Part shown: one piece after another, positions 9,665-45,971 of the stretch
How positions within the stretch are numbered: position 1 is the first letter of the stretch
Layout of the letters: the number at the start of each line of letters is the position of its first letter
Assembly (NCBI RefSeq): GCF_041435115.1
Contig: NZ_CP108046.1
Span: forward strand, 5,456,001-5,520,000
Length of the DNA stretch: 64,000 nucleotides
Reading direction: 5' to 3'
Origin: Streptomyces sp. NBC_00289
GTDB lineage: Bacteria; Actinomycetota; Actinomycetes; Streptomycetales; Streptomycetaceae
Notes under the pieces: model-generated
Told to the model about the DNA's origin: nothing
Seen by the model: the letters and a program-made list of their open reading frames with translations, nothing else
Databases searched by the model: none
Made by a program: the position numbers and the translations under genes

Positions 9665-11482
9665 ATGCCAGCCATGTCCCAGCCGTCGCGCGACCGCCGC
9701 AGACGTCGTACGTACCGAGTTCTCGCCGCGGCCGGCGCTCTGGTCACCGTCGGTGCCCTGGCCGCCGCGCTGCCGGCGACGGCGTCCGCCGGCGAGGGCC
9801 ACGGCAAGCCGGGCGGTCACAAGCCGAGCCGCTACCAGGACGTACAACTGCTGTCCTTCAACGACCTGCACGGCAACCTGGAGCCGCCGTCCGGTTCCTC
9901 CGGCCGGGTCACCGAGCTCCAGGCGGACGGCACGACGAAGACCATCGACGCGGGTGGTGTCGAGTACCTCGCGACCCATCTGCGCGAGGCCCGCAAGGGC
10001 AACCCCTACTCCATCACCGCGGCCGGCGGCGACATGGTCGGCGCGTCCCCGCTGATCTCGGGCCTCTTCCACGACGAGCCCACCATCGAGGCGCTGAACA
10101 AGCTCGACCTCGACGTGACCAGCGTCGGCAACCACGAGTTCGACGAGGGCGCCAAGGAACTGGCCCGGCTGCAGAACGGCGGCTGCCACCCGACCGCCGG
10201 CTGCTACACGGACAAGAGGTTCGAGGGCGCCGACTTCCCCTACCTCGCCGCCAACGTCCTCGACCAGAAGACCGGCAAGCCGATCCTCAAGCCCTACTGG
10301 GTGTGGAAGAAGAAGGACGTCAAGGTCGGCTTCATCGGCGTGACCCTGGAGGGCACCCCGGGCATCGTCTCGGCCGACGGCGTCAAGGGCCTCACCTTCA
10401 AGGACGAGGTCGAGACGATCAACAAGTACGCCAAGGTGCTGCAGAAGCAGGGCGTCAAGTCGATCGTCGCGCTCATCCACGAGGGCGGCCTGCCGTCCTC
10501 CGGCTCGTACAACTACGACTGCGACTCGCCGGGCGCGGGCGCCGGTGTCTCCGGCCCCATCGTCGACATCGCCAAGAACATCACGCCGTCGGTGGACGCC
10601 CTGGTGACGGGCCACACCCACACCGCGTACGTCTGCACCATCCCCGACCCGTCGGGCAAGCCCCGCATGGTCACCTCGGCCGCGTCCTTCGGCCGCCTCT
10701 ACACCGACACCACCCTCACTTACGACCGTCGCACGGGTGACATCGCCCGTACGGCCGTGACGTCGGCGAACCACGTGGTCACCCGGGACGTCCCCAAGGC
10801 GACCGACCTGACCGAGCTGATCAGCAGGTGGAACACCCTCGCCGCGCCCATCGGCAACCGGGCGATCGGCTACATCTCCGCCGACATCCCGAACACCGGC
10901 ACCGAGTCCCCCATGGGTGACCTGATCGCCGACGCGCAGCTCGCCCACGGCAAGTCCCTCGACGCCGGGACGGACCTGGCGCTGATGAACCCGGGCGGTG
11001 TCCGGGCCGGGCTGACCTACGCGGCCAAGGGTGCCGAGGGCGACGGCGTGGTGACGTACGCCGAGGGCTTCACCGTCCAGCCCTTCGCCAACACCGTGAA
11101 CCTCCAGGACTTCACCGGCGCCCAGGTCGTCCAGGCGCTCAAGGAGCAGGTGAGCGGCGTGAACGCGAGCGCGCCGAAGATCCTTCAGGTCTCCTCCGGT
11201 CTGACGTACACGCTGGACCTGACGAAGACGGGCGCCGACCGGGTCGTCGCCGACTCCGTCAAGCTCAACGGCGCGGCCATCGACCCGTCCGCCACCTACC
11301 GGGTCGCGACCAACAGCTTCCTCGCGGGCGGCGGCGACGGCTTCACCACCCTGGGCCAGGGCACCAACGACCTCGTCGGCTCGGACGACCTCGCGGCCCT
11401 GGAGCAGTACCTGACGGCCAACTCCTCGGCCACCAGCCCGATCGCGCCGCCGGCCGCCGACCGGATCACGATCGTGCAGTAG
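9665..11482 (+). CDS. Secreted 5'-nucleotidase / UDP-sugar hydrolase family protein
   Basis: A 605-aa exported phosphoesterase. A signal peptide occupies residues 1-43 (Arg-rich start, hydrophobic core, ASAG cleavage region). The metallophosphatase domain shows FNDLHGNL, GNHEFDEG and TGHTHTAY, the metal-binding motifs. The C-terminal nucleotidase domain shows MNPGGVRAGL and FLAGGGDGF, the substrate-binding part. It should release phosphate from external nucleotides. No sortase or lipid anchor is visible, so it is likely free. AGGGGGG three bases before the ATG at 9665 supports that start; another ATG follows at 9674. Phosphate control is plausible but I could not find clear PHO boxes. Confidence 0.92.
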   Translation: MPAMSQPSRDRRRRRTYRVLAAAGALVTVGALAAALPATASAGEGHGKPGGHKPSRYQDVQLLSFNDLHGNLEPPSGSSGRVTELQADGTTKTIDAGGVEYLATHLREARKGNPYSITAAGGDMVGASPLISGLFHDEPTIEALNKLDLDVTSVGNHEFDEGAKELARLQNGGCHPTAGCYTDKRFEGADFPYLAANVLDQKTGKPILKPYWVWKKKDVKVGFIGVTLEGTPGIVSADGVKGLTFKDEVETINKYAKVLQKQGVKSIVALIHEGGLPSSGSYNYDCDSPGAGAGVSGPIVDIAKNITPSVDALVTGHTHTAYVCTIPDPSGKPRMVTSAASFGRLYTDTTLTYDRRTGDIARTAVTSANHVVTRDVPKATDLTELISRWNTLAAPIGNRAIGYISADIPNTGTESPMGDLIADAQLAHGKSLDAGTDLALMNPGGVRAGLTYAAKGAEGDGVVTYAEGFTVQPFANTVNLQDFTGAQVVQALKEQVSGVNASAPKILQVSSGLTYTLDLTKTGADRVVADSVKLNGAAIDPSATYRVATNSFLAGGGDGFTTLGQGTNDLVGSDDLAALEQYLTANSSATSPIAPPAADRITIVQ

Positions 11483-38463: not shown

Positions 38464-38565
38464 AGTTGGCGACCAACTCAACAGTACTTATCTCCGTTTG
38501 GAAGCGTCTCATAACCACCTTCCGGCGAACTGCCGAAAGATGGCGAGAAGTTGTACTGTTTGGCC
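38464..38565 (+). promoter_or_regulatory. devE promoter: palindrome and leaderless -10
   Basis: AGTTGG-CGA-CCAACT at 38464-38478 is a perfect 6-bp inverted repeat starting exactly 102 bases before the GTG at 38566. A -10 like TACTGT (38554-38559) ends six bases before that GTG, so the transcript would begin on the start codon. The whole stretch is clearly homologous to the devA promoter (about three of four bases the same), with equal spacing. Likely bound by DevE and/or DevA. Confidence 0.75.
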
Positions 38566-39474
38566 GTGGACCCGAAACATGCCTCCGTCAATGGACGGTC
38601 GAGGTCACAGCGGCCACAGAAGTCACATCACGAGGTGGCCGACGAGCTGCGCGCCCGGATCAGGTCCGGTGCGCTGCGGCCGGGCCAGCGCATGCCCACG
38701 CAGGCCAACCTGGCCGACGAGTTCGGCGTGGAGCGCGGTGCCGTACGCCAGGCCCTGCGCATCCTGCAGGGAGAGCACCTGCTGACCAACGTGTCGAAGG
38801 GCAGCCCGGCCACGGTCGCCCCCGATCTGGGCCTCGACAGGCTCCTGACCGGCCCGGCAGCCCCGCCGCTGCCCACCACCGTGGGCCTCGCGCCCCGCAT
38901 AGCGACGGCCTTCGCGTCCCCACACGTCGAGATCGACGCACTGTGTCTGACCTCGGTCTCCCTCACGCTCGCGATCGGCGAACCCCTGCGCCGCATCCAC
39001 GCCGGACAGCTGAATCCGGCCAAGATCGACGTGCGGATCCTGCTGCCGAGCCGTGACATCGACCTCGCCTTCCCGGCTCCGGTGGACCCCTCGGTCGACG
39101 GCCGGCTGCAGCGCCGCTGGCTGGCCCAGCGCAACGCCCAGGGTCAGGTGTTGCGGCACAACCTGTTGGCACTGCGGGCCACGCACGGCACCGAGGTCGA
39201 CGTCACCTTCCGGGCCCTGCCCTTCACCCCGCCGGTGAAGCTGTACCTGCTCAACGGCGCGGAGGCGCTCTTCGCGTACTACACGCTCTCGCGGCGCGCG
39301 GAGGAGATCGACCACGAGCGCCTCGAGCTGTACGACGCCGAGGGCACCCAGTCGATGCTGTTCGCTTTCGAACAGGGCGCCGGCCTGCGTGACACGACGT
39401 TCGTGGAGCAGTCCCACCTGTGGTTCAACGCACTGTGGGAGACGATCAGTTCGGAGCTCGTGCTCACGAACTGA
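38566..39474 (+). CDS. devE: GntR-family developmental regulator DevE
   Basis: A 302-aa DevA-type GntR regulator. The winged helix lies at about 25-90 (GALRPGQRMPTQANLADEFG, VERGAVRQALRIL). The C-terminal domain (about 115-300) is shared with DevA and two other proteins of this window: KIDVRILLPSRDIDLAFP, FTPPVKLYLLNGAEALFAYY, and a final W-F-x4-W. Position before a small membrane gene and devA-devB matches devE of S. coelicolor, as I recall it. The GTG at 38566 is preferred because it aligns with the starts of the paralogues and sits six bases after a -10 hexamer. Confidence 0.88.
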   Translation: MDPKHASVNGRSRSQRPQKSHHEVADELRARIRSGALRPGQRMPTQANLADEFGVERGAVRQALRILQGEHLLTNVSKGSPATVAPDLGLDRLLTGPAAPPLPTTVGLAPRIATAFASPHVEIDALCLTSVSLTLAIGEPLRRIHAGQLNPAKIDVRILLPSRDIDLAFPAPVDPSVDGRLQRRWLAQRNAQGQVLRHNLLALRATHGTEVDVTFRALPFTPPVKLYLLNGAEALFAYYTLSRRAEEIDHERLELYDAEGTQSMLFAFEQGAGLRDTTFVEQSHLWFNALWETISSELVLTN

Positions 39475-39510: not shown

Positions 39511-39699
39511 TCACAGGGCGGGCCCCGCGACCAGGAGGGCGAGCACCACGGCCCCGACGGAGCTGACGGCCGGACTGTTGGACTTGATGCCGACGGTGAG
39601 CAGGAGCAGGCCGACGATGCCGGTGATCCCGTACTTCACCTGGACGGTCTGCTCGATACCGACGACGAGGACGGCGGAGACAAGGGCGAGGACAGGCAC
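39511..39699 (-). CDS. Small two-TM membrane protein (62 aa)
   Basis: Starts MPVLALVSAVLVVGIEQT from a GTG at 39699 with AAGGAGG nine bases upstream. Nearly the whole protein is hydrophobic: three short segments around residues 2-15, 25-37 and 45-60. It lies between devE and devA on the opposite strand, divergent from devA, so the devA palindrome could act on it too. A 106-residue reading from further upstream is less likely. Function unknown. Confidence 0.7.
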   Translation of the reverse strand: MPVLALVSAVLVVGIEQTVQVKYGITGIVGLLLLTVGIKSNSPAVSSVGAVVLALLVAGPAL

Positions 39700-39822
39700 G
39701 ATGGGGTTCCTCCTTCGGGGCTTCCGGGGCGGGCGGTTCGTGGGGGGCGGTTGTGGGGGTGGTCGTAGGGGATCGGGACGAGGTGGGGCGATGAGGAGGC
39801 AAACCTTCCGCCAACTCCGGTA

Positions 39823-39924
39823 AGTTGGCAACCAACTCTGTAGTAGTTGTCCCCACTTGGTACCTACTCATAAACAACTTTCAAACAACTCCCCATAGAT
39901 GGATCGAAGTTGTAGCGTTTGGTC
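39823..39924 (+). promoter_or_regulatory. devA promoter: palindrome and leaderless -10
   Basis: AGTTGG-CAA-CCAACT at 39823-39837 starts exactly 102 bases before the GTG at 39925, as upstream of devE. The -10 like TAGCGT (39913-39918) ends six bases before the GTG. Blocks ACTCATAA, AGATGG, GAAGTTGTA and GTTTGG are shared with devE at the same positions. No ribosome binding site precedes the GTG, which supports a leaderless transcript. Confidence 0.75.
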
Positions 39925-40797
39925 GTGACCCAGGAGAACGTGGCAGTGAACGGCAGCAGAAAGCTCTCGCCCCAGGAAATCGCCGACAGCCTGCGGGAAC
40001 GCATCCGCGGCGGGGACCTGAAGGCCGGAGACCGGCTGCCTACCCAGGCCGAACTCGCCGAGGAGTTCGGCGTGGAGCGGGGCACCGTCCGCCAAGCCCT
40101 GCGGGCACTCCAGGAGGACGGTCTCCTCAGCAACGTGAGCAAGGGCAGCCCGCCGCGCATCGCCGAACCGGCCGCCGGCCGGGCCGAACCGCAGCCGACC
40201 ATGGTGGGACTGGCCCCGCGCCTGGCAGAAGCCTTCGCGGCGCCGCACGTGCGGGTGGACGCGGCCTGTCTGACGGCCGAGACGCTCATGATGGCGCTGA
40301 GTGAACCGGTCCGCCTGATCCACGAGGGCCGCATCCGCCCCGAGTCGCTCGACGTCCGTATCCTCCTGCCGTCCCGGGACATCACCCTCGCCTTCCCGGT
40401 CCCCGTCGACGGCCGCGGCGACGCCGACCCCGTCCACCAGAGATGGCTGGCCCAGCGCAACGCCCAGGGTCACGTCCTGCGGCACAACCTGCAGACCCTG
40501 CGCTCCTCGCACGGCGTCGACGTACGGGTGACGTTCCGCGCGCTGCCCTTCACCCCGCCGGTGAAGCTGTACCTCCTGAACGAGGAGGAGGCGCTGATCG
40601 CGTACTACATGGTCACGCGCCGCGAGGAGACCTCCGACAGCGGGACGCTCGACATGTACGACGTCCTCGGCACCGAATCCCTCCTCTTCTCCTTCGAGAA
40701 GCGGACCGGCCAGCGCGACGCGGCCTTCGTGGAGGAATCCCAGAAGTGGTTCGACGCCCTCTGGGAAACCATCACGACTGACCTGACACTCTCTTAG
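39925..40797 (+). CDS. devA: GntR-family developmental regulator DevA
   Basis: A 290-aa regulator needed for aerial growth and sporulation in S. coelicolor (literature knowledge of DevA). The winged helix spans about 15-80 (GDLKAGDRLPTQAELAEEFG, VERGTVRQALRAL). The C-terminal domain has SLDVRILLPSRDITLAFP, FTPPVKLYLLNEEEAL and KWFDALWETI. It is highly similar to DevE over its whole length. Its stop TAG shares one base with the GTG of devB, so the two genes are coupled. Probably autoregulated through the upstream palindrome. Confidence 0.92.
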   Translation: MTQENVAVNGSRKLSPQEIADSLRERIRGGDLKAGDRLPTQAELAEEFGVERGTVRQALRALQEDGLLSNVSKGSPPRIAEPAAGRAEPQPTMVGLAPRLAEAFAAPHVRVDAACLTAETLMMALSEPVRLIHEGRIRPESLDVRILLPSRDITLAFPVPVDGRGDADPVHQRWLAQRNAQGHVLRHNLQTLRSSHGVDVRVTFRALPFTPPVKLYLLNEEEALIAYYMVTRREETSDSGTLDMYDVLGTESLLFSFEKRTGQRDAAFVEESQKWFDALWETITTDLTLS

Positions 40798-41546
40798 TGA
40801 CCTCTGATACGACGCAGACCGAACTGGCGGCAGCACAACCGGCGTTCGACCCCGAGCGGATCCGGAACCTGATCATGAACGCGCGGGTCGTCCTGTGGGA
40901 TTTCGACGGACCGATCTGCCGCCTGTTCGCGGGACACTCGGCGGAGCGGGTGGCGGTCGAACTGGTGGAGTGGCTCGAAGGCAGGGGCCTGCACGGCCTG
41001 CTGACCGACACGGAACGGCAGTCCCTGGACCCGCAGGTAGTTCTGCGCGCTGTGGACCTCAGACATCCCGGCAGTGACCTCGTGGCGGAGTTGGAGGAAC
41101 GTTTGACCCAGGAGGAGCTCCGGGCCACGCCCACGGCGATGCCAACCCCGTATGCCGACCCGCTGATCCGTACATGGGCTGCTGTCGGCACCCGGCTGGC
41201 CATTGCCACCAACAACTCCCCCCGAGGTGTCCGCAAATACCTGACCGGCCGGGATCTCGTCCCCTGCTTCGCTCCGCACATATACGGCCGCACCCCGACG
41301 CTCAGCCGCCTCAAGCCCGACCCCCACTGTCTGACCCGTGCCCTGAGCGCCATGGGCTCGGCTCCCTCAGCCGCTCTGATGATCGGCGACACACCGTCCG
41401 ACCTGCTGGCCGCCCGCGCGGCCGGCGTCCCGTTCCTCGGCTACGCGCGTAACGAGCGCAAGGCGAAGCTCCTGCGGGACGAGGGCGCCGAGACGATCGT
41501 GAACTCGCTGCAGCCCGTTCTCGAACTCCTCCGGTCTCACGCCTGA
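40797..41546 (+). CDS. devB: HAD-superfamily phosphatase DevB
   Basis: A 249-aa hydrolase with the four HAD motifs: nucleophile Asp in LWDFDGPICR near residue 34, Thr in IATNNSPRG, Lys in SRLKPDPHC, and the acidic pair in IGDTPSD. A helical cap follows motif I. Overlap with devA by one base indicates an operon, as known for S. coelicolor devAB. Its substrate is unknown. Asp-x-Asp in motif I is typical of phosphatases rather than dehalogenases. Confidence 0.9.
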   Translation: MTSDTTQTELAAAQPAFDPERIRNLIMNARVVLWDFDGPICRLFAGHSAERVAVELVEWLEGRGLHGLLTDTERQSLDPQVVLRAVDLRHPGSDLVAELEERLTQEELRATPTAMPTPYADPLIRTWAAVGTRLAIATNNSPRGVRKYLTGRDLVPCFAPHIYGRTPTLSRLKPDPHCLTRALSAMGSAPSAALMIGDTPSDLLAARAAGVPFLGYARNERKAKLLRDEGAETIVNSLQPVLELLRSHA

Positions 41547-41626: not shown

Positions 41627-41694
41627 TCAACGGAGGCCAATTGGAGCCGTTGACCGCCGTTTTGCCGGAAGCGGGGAAGCGGTACGTTCCACAG
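41627..41694 (+). promoter_or_regulatory. Promoter/operator of the third DevA-like gene
   Basis: TCAACGG (41627-41633) and CCGTTGA (41647-41653) form an inverted repeat around a centre containing the palindrome CCAATTGG (41637-41644). A -10 like TACGTT (41683-41688) ends six bases before the GTG at 41695, the same leaderless layout as devE and devA, but the operator sequence differs. Confidence 0.6.
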
Positions 41695-42570
41695 GTGACC
41701 GCACGGCAGGGCAGGCAGGGTGGGAGCGGCAAGGAGTTCCAGAAGGTCTCCGGTGAACTGCGGGCCCGGATGACGGACGGGACCTATCCGCTGCGTTCCT
41801 TCCTGCCCGCGCAACGTGATCTCGCCGCGGAGTTCGAGGTCTCCCGGGACACCGTCCAGCGGGCGCTGCGGGAGCTGGTCGACGAGGGCTGGATCGAATC
41901 ACGGCAGGGCAGCGGCTCACGGGTGATCAAGACCCAGCGCATACAGTCCTCCACGCCCAGGGCGACCAGGACGCGGCTCGGGATGACACTGGGGCCGCTC
42001 ATCAGCGAGGCCTTCGAGCAGCCCGAAGTGACTCTCGACGTCTCCACGTTGACCTCCGAGTCCCTGGACGCGCACATCCGTCTCCAGGTGGAGCGCATCC
42101 GCTCCGGTTACATCGCGCCCCAGCACATCGCCCTGCGCATGCTCCTGCCCGACGAGACGATGCCCCTGCCCTATCCCCGGGCCAAGGGCGACGAGGGCGA
42201 CGAGCGGCCGCGGCAGCGCCTGCTCGCCATCACACAGCGCCACACGGAGTCCTTGCGGGTTCAGCTGAACGACCTGCGGACCGAGAACCTGGTGCCCTCC
42301 GTCGACCTGAGGATCCGCCACGCACCACTGATCCCCGCGTTCAAGCTGTACCTGCTCAACGGCGCCGAAGCTCTGCACGGGATGTACGAGGTGATCGAGC
42401 GCCAGATGGACGTGGGCACCGGCGAGGTGATCACCGCCCTCGACGTCCTGGGCGTCGGAGCCACGCTCACCCACCACGTGAAGGACGCCGACCCGAATTC
42501 ACAGGGATCGGTCTTCGTCAACGCCATGCAGATGTGGTTCGAGTCGGTCTGGAACCTGCTCGGCGAATAG
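41695..42570 (+). CDS. Third DevA-like GntR regulator
   Basis: A 291-aa protein. The winged helix (about 10-80) reads YPLRSFLPAQRDLAAEFEVSR and DTVQRALRELVDEGWI, with ARMTDGTYP before it. The C-terminal domain aligns with DevA and DevE: HIALRMLLPDETMPLPYP, IPAFKLYLLNGAEALHGMY, and MWFESVWNLL at the end. It is more distant from DevA than DevE is. The GTG at 41695 aligns with the starts of the paralogues. It follows devB by about 150 bases on the same strand and precedes the double-kinase gene. Confidence 0.85.
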   Translation: MTARQGRQGGSGKEFQKVSGELRARMTDGTYPLRSFLPAQRDLAAEFEVSRDTVQRALRELVDEGWIESRQGSGSRVIKTQRIQSSTPRATRTRLGMTLGPLISEAFEQPEVTLDVSTLTSESLDAHIRLQVERIRSGYIAPQHIALRMLLPDETMPLPYPRAKGDEGDERPRQRLLAITQRHTESLRVQLNDLRTENLVPSVDLRIRHAPLIPAFKLYLLNGAEALHGMYEVIERQMDVGTGEVITALDVLGVGATLTHHVKDADPNSQGSVFVNAMQMWFESVWNLLGE

Positions 42571-42802
42571 GCGAGGGCTGCGGGTCACAGCTGAGGGGGT
42601 GCTGTAGCATGCGCGAACCGCGTGAGCAACCGCTCCCGTTCGTACGTATGGGATGGCGAACACGCCAACCTCGAACGACCTGACGCAGAAGAGCGCCAAA
42701 CCACCCGTTGTGGCTACTCAAGCCGGACTCTGGTCGTGCAAACCCTCTCGGCGTTTAAGTATTGCCGTATCTTCCATCTCGCACGAGTATCCGGAGCGAC
42801 CA
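42571..42802 (+). promoter_or_regulatory. Gap before the double-kinase gene
   Basis: A 232-base gap with AT-rich patches (GTTTAAGTATTGCC near 42757). The frame of the kinase is open back to an ATG at 42653, but the residues there look non-coding. GTTCG and CGAAC flank 14 bases near 42632-42655. I see no clear terminator after the preceding regulator, so read-through is possible. Confidence 0.35.
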
Positions 42803-44989
42803 GTGGGCGCATCCCCGTCTTCCCGCTACCTGCCGGGAGAACGCGCCTCAGCCGCCGTCACCTGTGCGCGATTCGTGGCACTCGCCGCCCGCGAGGGGCA
42901 AGCCAGCAGCGGACACCACAACCTGAACTACGTACTGCCCCTGTCGGAGCCCATGGCGCGGCTCCTGAACCGGAATCCGGGTGTGTCGGTGACTGTGCGG
43001 AGGCGACGCGCCGAGGCGCTACCCGTGGTGATCAGGACCTGGCCGGACGAAGCGACAATCCTCGACGCCATCAGAGGTGTCCTTCCACATGTCCCCGAGT
43101 GTCTCACCCGGCAGGACGACATCGCGATCCACAGCTATGTGGAAGGCGTGCCACTCTCCAGCGTGTGCGCCAATGGCAAGCCCGTCGACAGCTTTCTCAT
43201 CCGCGCGCTGGCCGAGCAACTGGCTCAGCTGACCCAGGTACGCAAAGGGCTTCTGCCACCCCTACCGCTTGCCTGGCCCCGCAACCACCTGGACAGCCAG
43301 GGGTTCCTGCAGACGATGGCGAACCTCGCTGAGCAGCAGATCAGAAAGCCGAACTGGGAACTGTTCGGTGGGCTGTTCGCGGCACTCGGTATTCCCGAGG
43401 ACGCCCTCACGCGGATGGCCGAGCGGGTGCCCGCCATGGCGCGGCGGCCGTACAGCCTCCTCCACGCGGACCTGCATCGCGACAACCTGATCATGCCGTA
43501 CGACGGCGACCCGCCCGTGGTCTGCGTCGACTGGGAACTGGCCACCTACGGCGACCCCCTGCACGACCTGGCCGTCCACCTCGTCCGTATGAGGTACCCG
43601 TCCCACCAATGGACGGAGGTGATCGAGGCATGGGCGGAGGCGATGCACCGAGTCCGTCCTGCTGCCACTGGCGGACTGTCCAAGGATCTGCGTCAGTACG
43701 TCCTGTTCGAGCGGGCGCAGTCCCTTTACCCCGACGTGATGCGGGCTGCCAGGGCCCTGGCAGGCTCCCGGGACCAGAAGAGCCTGGACGAGGCGACGAC
43801 AGAGGTCTGCCGGGCCCTGGAAACGGCGGCCGAACCACTCAGGCTCAGAAACGTTCCTGGACAGAGTGAGGTCGAGCGGATCCTCTTCCGGTGGCGTGAG
43901 TCCCGCAAGGACGACAGCAGCCGTCTGCGGTGGGTGCGCAGCTTCGTCGACTGGCGGGCGGACCGGCGTGTGCCGGAGCAACCCGATTTTCCCCGCGACG
44001 CCGTCTCGCGGGCGCTGGTCGCGGAGGGCACCGCGCCGGCGCACCGGGTGTTCAAGGGAACCGCGCACCTCAACACGGTGGTCTGGGTGTCGGGCGTCGA
44101 CTTTCCGGTCGTGGTGCGGCGCAAGGCGGCGCAGGTTTGCAGACGTGAGCGCAGCTTTCTCAGCGAGCACGCCGTGCTCTGGGCGATCCACGACTCCCGC
44201 GTGGAGGTGGCGGCACCCAGAGTGCTGGCTCTGGGCAAGAGCTACCGCAAGGAGCCCTTCGCGATCCACACGTACGTGGGGCACCGCGAGATCGACCACC
44301 CCCCCAGCCATCCGGTGCACGGGCTGCTTCCGCACGAGGCGGACCGGCTTGTCGACCAGCTCCGTGCGCTGACCGAAGTCGACTACAAACGGATCGACCC
44401 CACGGCCGGCGAGGGCCGCTTCTACGACTGGCTCGCGCAGCAACTCGTCCAGCTGGTCGACGGTTTGCCCAAGGAATCACAGCAGCTGGCCCGGAATCTC
44501 GGGCTGCCCGACGCCGACCGGCTCGGCCAGATCCTTTCCCGGCACCGCTTGACCGAGAGAGACCCGGCCCTACTGCATGGTGACCTCAATCCGTGGAACC
44601 TCGTGCGGCGCGAGGACAAGCTTGCTCTGACCATCATCGACTGGGAGATGGCCGTCGTCGGCGACCCTCTGTACGAGTTGGTCCGGCACATGCATCTCAC
44701 TCCGACGCGGCCGGAGATCCGTGACCGCATGTTCAACCGCTGGGAGCGCCTCATGCCCCGCGCCTGCACCAGCAACTGGCGGGACGACTGGCGGGTGTAC
44801 CGATGGATCGAGATCGTCCGTTCCGCGTATGTGGATCTCGACCGCCTGGTGACCGGTGCCAACCTGGACGCCCCCAACGTCCTCCGGGCTGTTCAGTCGT
44901 ACGCGATGACGCTGGCGGCCGCCAAAGGTTCGCTCGGCATGCCTGCGGGGCCGGCCACGAATCCTCATCTTGCCCGCGTCCTGACCTAG
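42803..44989 (+). CDS. Tandem two-domain APH-type kinase
   Basis: A 728-aa protein with two fused kinase domains of the aminoglycoside phosphotransferase/choline kinase class. The first has catalytic HADLHRDN near residue 220 and VDWELATYGDP near 242. The second has LHGDLNPWN near residue 590 and IDWEMAVVGDP near 612. Both keep the catalytic Asp, Asn and metal-binding Asp, so both may be active. GTG at 42803 with CGGAG six bases upstream. Substrates could be drugs, sugars or small metabolites. The codon use looks less GC-extreme than in the core genes around it, suggesting acquisition. Confidence 0.85.
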   Translation: MGASPSSRYLPGERASAAVTCARFVALAAREGQASSGHHNLNYVLPLSEPMARLLNRNPGVSVTVRRRRAEALPVVIRTWPDEATILDAIRGVLPHVPECLTRQDDIAIHSYVEGVPLSSVCANGKPVDSFLIRALAEQLAQLTQVRKGLLPPLPLAWPRNHLDSQGFLQTMANLAEQQIRKPNWELFGGLFAALGIPEDALTRMAERVPAMARRPYSLLHADLHRDNLIMPYDGDPPVVCVDWELATYGDPLHDLAVHLVRMRYPSHQWTEVIEAWAEAMHRVRPAATGGLSKDLRQYVLFERAQSLYPDVMRAARALAGSRDQKSLDEATTEVCRALETAAEPLRLRNVPGQSEVERILFRWRESRKDDSSRLRWVRSFVDWRADRRVPEQPDFPRDAVSRALVAEGTAPAHRVFKGTAHLNTVVWVSGVDFPVVVRRKAAQVCRRERSFLSEHAVLWAIHDSRVEVAAPRVLALGKSYRKEPFAIHTYVGHREIDHPPSHPVHGLLPHEADRLVDQLRALTEVDYKRIDPTAGEGRFYDWLAQQLVQLVDGLPKESQQLARNLGLPDADRLGQILSRHRLTERDPALLHGDLNPWNLVRREDKLALTIIDWEMAVVGDPLYELVRHMHLTPTRPEIRDRMFNRWERLMPRACTSNWRDDWRVYRWIEIVRSAYVDLDRLVTGANLDAPNVLRAVQSYAMTLAAAKGSLGMPAGPATNPHLARVLT

Positions 44990-45107: not shown

Positions 45108-45971
45108 ATGTCCCAGGGGACGAGCGGTGCGGGCGATGACGGCTTGGGGCGGAGGCTGAAGCGCTATCAGGAACGCATCGAGTCCGTGGTGACCCGCGTC
45201 GGGCTGCTCGGCATTTTCGCCACCGGTGTGATCGCCCAGTTCGTCAAGCCGGTAGGGGATGCCCTGGAGGGCAAGGCATACCTCGGTGGCGCGCTGCTCA
45301 GTCTCGTCGGTTACGTGCTGTACGACCAGGTGAAGGATCTGTCCGCGTCGATCCGGGTGCCGACGCGGGCGCTCGTGAAATCCAGCGAGCTCGGGACGTT
45401 CGTCAGCGAGGCATTCAGAGCGCGGAGGGTGGAGATCAGCTTTCTCGGCTACACGGGCGAGACCCTCTTCAACGAACTGGCCGACCGGCTGGAGGACCTC
45501 CGCGTCCATCCGGGCCCCACCAGAGTCTCGATCCGGATGCTGGTGCCGGACTTCAAGCAGCCGATGCTCGTGCCGTCCAAGGTCGGCCTCGCCGAGGCGC
45601 CGGAGGACGACCCAGCCTACCGGGAGCGGTTGGAACGGCGCTGCGACGAATACGACGGAACCCTGTCGAATCTCGCGGCGCAGCTCACCGCCACCCGCCG
45701 CGTGGTCGTGGAGTGCGAGTACCGCTTCTACCCGGGGATACCGCGCGACAAGGTATGCATATTCAACCGGCAGCAGGTGCTGCACGGCTTGTACGACCTT
45801 TCCACACGATCGCGCCTGCACCCCCAGGGCCCGGAGTACTACGACCCCAAGGGCTACAGAGCCGAACTCAACGTGTGGTCGGGGGAAGGCACGGCTGCCG
45901 CTGAGGCAGCCGTTTCCATGTGGAACAAGCATTTCGACGATCTGTGGCAACTGGCTCGGCGGTCCGCGTAG
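45108..45971 (+). CDS. Membrane-tethered protein with DevA-type C-terminal domain
   Basis: A 287-aa protein. Two membrane segments at about 30-48 (VGLLGIFATGVIAQFV) and 55-72 (AYLGGALLSLVGYVLYD) are followed by a soluble domain (about 95-285) that aligns with the C-terminal domains of DevE, DevA and the third DevA-like regulator: TFVSEAFRARRVEISF, RVSIRMLVPDFKQPMLVP, then DKVCIFNRQQVLHGLYDLS where DevA-types have KLYLLNGAEAL, and MWNKHFDDLWQL at the end. It has no winged helix. AAGGGGG precedes the ATG. It may sense the same ligand at the membrane, or regulate the DevA-types (inference). Confidence 0.8.
   Translation: MSQGTSGAGDDGLGRRLKRYQERIESVVTRVGLLGIFATGVIAQFVKPVGDALEGKAYLGGALLSLVGYVLYDQVKDLSASIRVPTRALVKSSELGTFVSEAFRARRVEISFLGYTGETLFNELADRLEDLRVHPGPTRVSIRMLVPDFKQPMLVPSKVGLAEAPEDDPAYRERLERRCDEYDGTLSNLAAQLTATRRVVVECEYRFYPGIPRDKVCIFNRQQVLHGLYDLSTRSRLHPQGPEYYDPKGYRAELNVWSGEGTAAAEAAVSMWNKHFDDLWQLARRSA

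Follow-up and report, generated by a model that had tools for sequence, protein, structure and literature searches.

DevA-like regulators and related systems

Sporulation of Streptomyces coelicolor requires the regulators DevA and DevE. The DevA subfamily of GntR regulators was described by Clark and Hoskisson (2011; PMC3187754), from whom the dev gene names used here are taken; its members have a winged helix in front of the C-terminal domain, DevA-like proteins are listed for several other genera, and devA is reported to be autoregulated. No effector of DevA or DevE was found in the main text of that paper or in the literature searched, which covered few subscription papers. Within a stretch of 64,000 nucleotides from Streptomyces sp. 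NBC_00289 (contig NZ_CP108046.1, positions 5,456,001 to 5,520,000; hereafter, the window), a gene on the forward strand (45108..45971) lies in the same gene cluster and encodes a protein of 287 amino acids in which a DevA-type domain, placed on its own branch in the domain tree, follows a probable two-helix membrane hairpin instead of a winged helix. The DevA-type domain is already known; in the literature searched, neither a paper on a membrane-tethered form nor a report of a phospholipase D (PLD) fold for the C-terminal domain of DevA was found, and the main text of PMC3187754 does not mention the form, the word “membrane” occurring zero times in it.

By predicted fold, the domain may also be related to the PLD-like effector core of the archaeal regulators TrmB and TrmBL2; the membrane protein, in contrast, lacks their helix-turn-helix (HTH). 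The sugar site of TrmB is described as lying in an extra C-terminal part absent from TrmBL2 (PMC4158304, PMC4877046); the stretch matched ends before this site and sugar binding is therefore not transferable to the membrane protein. Neither PF01978 nor PF11495, the Pfam families for the HTH and effector domain of TrmB, matched the membrane protein or any of the 33 rows of a domain alignment (A3).

A DevA-type domain in a membrane protein

The soluble part of the membrane protein (approximately residues 92–284; 45381..45959, forward strand) is a domain of the DevA C-terminal type. In pairwise BLASTP it matches the three GntR regulators encoded upstream on the same strand and assigned by Pfam and BLASTP, namely GntR3, the third DevA-like regulator (41641..42570; E-value 3e-12), the DevE-like protein (38551..39474; 9e-11) and the DevA-like protein (39919..40797; 1e-9), with matched residues of the membrane protein ranging from 95–234 to 95–281; a six-frame search of the whole 11.0-Mb genome returned, besides the protein itself, only those three regulators (9e-9, 2.6e-6 and 3.9e-6). 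When separate profiles of 10 membrane-type and 24 GntR-type domains were aligned with hhalign, the probability was 99.9% (E-value 3e-32, 191 columns), identity between the two types being only about 20–28%. The likeness to the effector domains of all three regulators, first noticed in the original prediction together with short sequence motifs that are indeed present in the protein, is thus confirmed. No model in Pfam, NCBIfam or PADLOC matches the DevA-type domain.

A DNA-binding domain had been judged absent, and this agrees with the searches made: at E ≤ 1 Pfam detected neither a GntR nor any other HTH domain, and a purpose-built HTH profile matched none of 75 membrane-type proteins. The further claim, that a GntR winged helix precedes the domain wherever it is known, is nearly correct within the sequence family, where 220 of 225 non-membrane copies carry a GntR HTH (of the other five, two are a single damaged membrane gene counted twice and three showed no HTH), but too narrow at the level of fold, as the PLD fold is also found behind the unrelated HTH of TrmB. 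These copies belong to 300 domains drawn from two overlapping locus sets, in which several contigs occur twice (for example L034/L179, L039/L209 and L112/L211), and are therefore not independent. In locus L042, a protein of 231 amino acids (9843–10538, forward strand) consists of a DevA-type domain with neither HTH nor hairpin, its stop-to-stop frame being too short for an HTH; it may represent either an isolated soluble domain or the remnant of a degraded GntR3. Open reading frames (ORFs) in L113 and L218 also have the domain with no HTH seen.

The membrane protein begins with a basic stretch, followed by the probable hairpin (approximately residues 27–75; 45186..45332, forward strand; inter-helix loop P-V-G-D-A-L-E-G-K) and the soluble domain. 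The membrane tether of the original prediction is supported, and its two-helix form is likely from hydropathy: homologues were listed as the best 120 of 284 and the best 120 of 1246 matches, and of 120 homologues 82 have two segments above the cut and 38 have one. In the protein of the window the first segment alone (27–45) passes; the alignment and the structure model, which has helices at 13–52 and 58–81 with low confidence (predicted local distance difference test, pLDDT, approximately 30–54), are consistent with the hairpin. Many homologues are named “ATP/GTP-binding protein” in public records. A Walker A motif ([AG]x4GK[ST]) is present in just 6 of 165 homologues, there within the inter-helix loop, and the name could therefore be an artefact; the window protein has GDALEGKA at this place, which does not match the motif.

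The ORF behaves like a real gene under purifying selection. Its third-position GC is 0.85, the closest other homologues among the matches listed are 73–76% identical, and comparison with three orthologues gave 0.17–0.20 nonsynonymous (dN) and 0.64–0.96 synonymous (dS) substitutions per site, that is, a dN/dS of about 0.2–0.3. Three sub-types of the protein can be told apart: that of the window, one in which an insert resembling a coiled coil follows the hairpin (L036 and L043 among others) and a third, more divergent form seen in L042, L118 and L119.

A predicted phospholipase D fold lacking the catalytic histidine

Structure prediction gave a PLD fold for the domain of the membrane protein and for the C-terminal domain of DevA, the two models having been assessed separately rather than superposed on each other directly; together with the profile alignment this bears out the relationship in the two respects, profile similarity and predicted fold, in which the original prediction might have failed. 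Among the solved structures with a related fold is the core of archaeal TrmB. Sequence searches of the Protein Data Bank, with the protein and with the domain alignment as query, gave only chance matches, and the fold, in the membrane as well as the GntR forms, is therefore taken from the models.

The catalytic PLD superfamily (Nuc, NucT, Zucchini, phospholipase D) has the same predicted fold and differs in possessing a histidine within the motif H-x-K-x4-D. In the membrane protein, R-x-K-x4-N (residues 213–220; 45744..45767, forward strand) appears to stand at this place, with the lysine kept and the histidine absent; the alignment is weak here and the placement, made by secondary structure, rests mainly on strand order. 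A3 and the GntR-type rows pair K215 and N220 with the K and D of the catalytic motif, whereas the membrane-type rows alone align elsewhere. At the aligned position a histidine was found in none of 300 domain sequences, and the three H-x-K-x4-D strings encountered lie elsewhere in the domain, by chance. Because the histidine is absent throughout, the domain is probably a sensor rather than an enzyme. That it should be a PLD-superfamily enzyme acting on a lipid or phosphodiester at the membrane, as the predicted fold, the location and the kept lysine might suggest, is for the same reason hardly credible.

DUF5919 (PF19319) of Streptomyces shows a weak profile similarity to the domain over 70–71 columns including the terminal tryptophan, with probabilities from 29% (A3) to 47% (GntR-type rows); membrane-type rows alone reached 6.5% and the Pfam scan gave no match. 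DUF5919 occurs in XRE regulators.

Ancestry of the membrane-type domain

A tree was built from 89 representative domains, and in it the 32 domains of the membrane type all lie on one side of a branch that separates them from all those of the GntR type, with a support of 92 in the Shimodaira–Hasegawa-like approximate likelihood ratio test (SH-aLRT). The membrane-type domains thus appear to form a sister line of the GntR-type domains, for which “orphan copy”, the term first used, is too loose, and a recent copy of the domain of GntR3 is rejected on the basis of the same branch. The tree was made by a quick method with SH-aLRT as its sole support measure and a midpoint root, from 89 of the 300 sequences after thinning at 75% identity, and 41 of its 86 inner branches are weakly supported; being in effect unrooted, it gives no direction of change, that is, whether an HTH was lost or a hairpin gained.

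Distribution and gene neighbourhood

A search with a hairpin profile detected the membrane protein in 27 of 246 Streptomyces genomes, indicating a patchy accessory, and a domain search found the domain in 8 of 246 genomes of the phylum; as 20 and 13 candidates per genome were scored, respectively, absences may be misses. All named homologues among the matches listed are from Streptomyces.

In the window, the gene directly upstream of the membrane gene (42653..44989, forward strand) encodes a protein with two APH-type phosphotransferase domains according to Pfam; the tandem arrangement is found here, while relatives with a single domain occur at other loci. Further upstream lies a gene for a HAD phosphatase (40797..41546, forward strand; Pfam), called DevB-type after the gene context given in PMC3187754. 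Of 27 loci in the first set, 24 are in the dev cluster and three elsewhere (L036, L040, L111); the same-strand gene directly upstream in these 24 encodes APH (17), a DevB-type HAD protein (6) or GntR3 (1). The second set, which overlaps the first, draws on named genomes and comprises 52 loci, 51 of them with Streptomyces in the title and one from “Actinobacteria bacterium OK074”; 47 are in the dev cluster, with an APH-type kinase (42), a DevB-type HAD phosphatase (3) or GntR3 (2) directly upstream on the same strand. GntR3 was detected in 36 of the 52, and the steadiest neighbour of the membrane gene is thus a kinase or phosphatase rather than GntR3. In 43 of 45 loci, 24–118 bases separate the stop codon of APH from the aligned start of the membrane gene. 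As L204 and L222 begin 1.4–1.7 kb from a contig end, their status outside the cluster is unsure; no APH was detected in L205, and a weak match to the membrane segments in L049 (E-value 5e-5, inside an unrelated ORF of 606 amino acids) was left out of the counts. The dev cluster seems to be a hot spot, where extra genes for DevA-type GntR, DevB-type HAD and APH-type proteins occur in changing order (L042, L052, L053, L116, L214 and others).

A possible sensor at the membrane

It is proposed, with a probability of roughly 40%, that the membrane protein is a membrane-held sensor facing the cytoplasm, that its ligand is of the class read by the Dev regulators and that it is tied to the kinase/phosphatase pair. 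The reasons are that its steadiest neighbours add or remove phosphate and that it has the same kind of domain as the regulators of the cluster. The N-terminal two-helix hairpin would anchor the non-catalytic PLD-fold domain to the cytoplasmic side of the cell membrane, an orientation suggested by the basic N-terminus and two membrane passes, and the domain would probably bind a ligand of the same class as the domains of DevA, DevE and GntR3. Its gene is probably on one transcript with that of the upstream APH-type kinase, often with that of GntR3 too. The kinase might raise, and DevB-type phosphatases lower, the level of a phosphorylated small molecule, which the GntR proteins would read at the DNA and the membrane protein at the membrane. 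We infer the two membrane passes, the cytoplasmic side, the co-transcription and the sensor role; the phosphorylated nature of the ligand and the action that follows its binding are guesses. The original prediction that the protein competes for, or hands on, the signal of the regulators may hold, but its gene most steadily adjoins that of a kinase or phosphatase rather than GntR3. A wider idea is speculative: a single intracellular phosphorylated metabolite, which the APH-type kinase would produce and DevB-type phosphatases would eliminate, might be sensed by DevA, DevE, GntR3 and the membrane protein alike, so that a catalytically dead PLD-fold domain, in a DNA-bound and a membrane-bound form, passes the signal to transcription as well as to the membrane.

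Several observations weigh against a sensor of this kind. The positive-inside signal is modest: in 103 sequences, Lys/Arg residues average 4.1 in the 17 positions preceding helix 1, 1.8 in the loop of 11 residues and 3.1 in the 20 positions that follow helix 2. Alignment by hhalign to the catalytic family PLDc_2 is not significant, with local/global probabilities of 2.4%/0.1% for A3, 1.5%/0.05% for the membrane-type rows and 0.7%/5.1% for the GntR-type rows; the PLD assignment therefore rests on the predicted structures. There is no known ligand for any member of the domain family. Solo copies outside the dev cluster have no adjoining kinase or phosphatase (L036, L040/L216, L111, L202, L203), and the cluster of kinase and phosphatase also occurs at loci that lack the membrane gene (L046, L047, L052 and L053 among them), so that the neighbourhood alone could be inherited.

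The main rival explanation is sequestration: by pairing with its homologue in GntR3, DevA or DevE, the membrane domain would draw that regulator away from the DNA, the signal being passed by protein contact and not through a common ligand. GntR regulators dimerise through the C-terminal domain (PMC3187754), the two types of domain are homologous over the whole length of the profile alignment, and genes of the DevA/DevE type, counting GntR3, are present at 47 of 52 loci; mixed pairing is, however, not favoured between domains which the tree and their low identity indicate to be long separate, GntR3 was undetected in 16 of the 52 loci and some copies are far from any dev gene, which together leave such sequestration a minority possibility. 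The gene might also be an accessory of uncertain use in a fast-changing region, with no functional tie to Dev signalling. It is absent from most genomes, and shortened or split copies exist at the usual place (161 amino acids in L106; 136 amino acids plus a separate domain ORF in L112/L211; 93 amino acids in L115/L223), but the low dN/dS and a constant place behind the kinase in 47 loci make this doubtful. SLATT proteins are effectors with two transmembrane helices, the hairpin of which is proposed to disrupt the membrane. A comparable role in conflict or defence, in which the PLD-like part would sense a nucleotide or damage signal, could be read from the hairpin-and-sensor layout, the patchy occurrence and the transposase-like ORFs (judged from ORF sequence) near some solo copies (L203, L204), but is very unlikely given that PADLOC (2023 library) contains no defence model matching the membrane protein at E ≤ 1, that the position in a developmental cluster is near-fixed and that selection is purifying.

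Should the membrane protein be a sensor as proposed, the same type of signal may have readers on the DNA as well as in the membrane. The predicted PLD fold provides a structural handle on the ligand site of DevA and DevE, the presence of a related domain in a membrane protein encoded next to a kinase and a phosphatase indicates a ligand class worth seeking, and the question of what DevA senses would become directly testable with isolated domains.

Candidate operators in the dev cluster

The palindrome AGTTGG-N3-CCAACT, a candidate operator for DevA/DevE, is located upstream of devE (38464..38478) and of devA (39823..39837), both on the forward strand; it is exact upstream of devE in 45 of 46 loci and upstream of devA in 34 of 48, with six more showing one mismatch, which fits the autoregulation of devA as reported in PMC3187754. 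At up to two mismatches none was found upstream of GntR3 (37 loci), APH (46), HAD (47) or the membrane gene (52). Since candidate sites precede devE and devA and none the membrane gene, the pattern suggests that the latter is part of a GntR3-APH unit and not of the DevA regulon. With a sigma-70 pattern no promoter-like site was seen between 44800 and 46200, which says little for Streptomyces.

A palindrome of 25 bases (41628..41652, forward strand) overlaps the listed TTG start of GntR3 and is a candidate operator of this regulator; the true start may be the GTG at 41695, in which case the palindrome would fall in the promoter region. Its core, GTCCAATTGGAC, is exact upstream of 15 of 37 GntR3 genes. 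Divergent from devA, a small ORF of 106 amino acids (39511–39831, reverse strand) is present in many loci; its location and direction resemble those of devC in PMC3187754, although devC is given there as approximately 50 amino acids.
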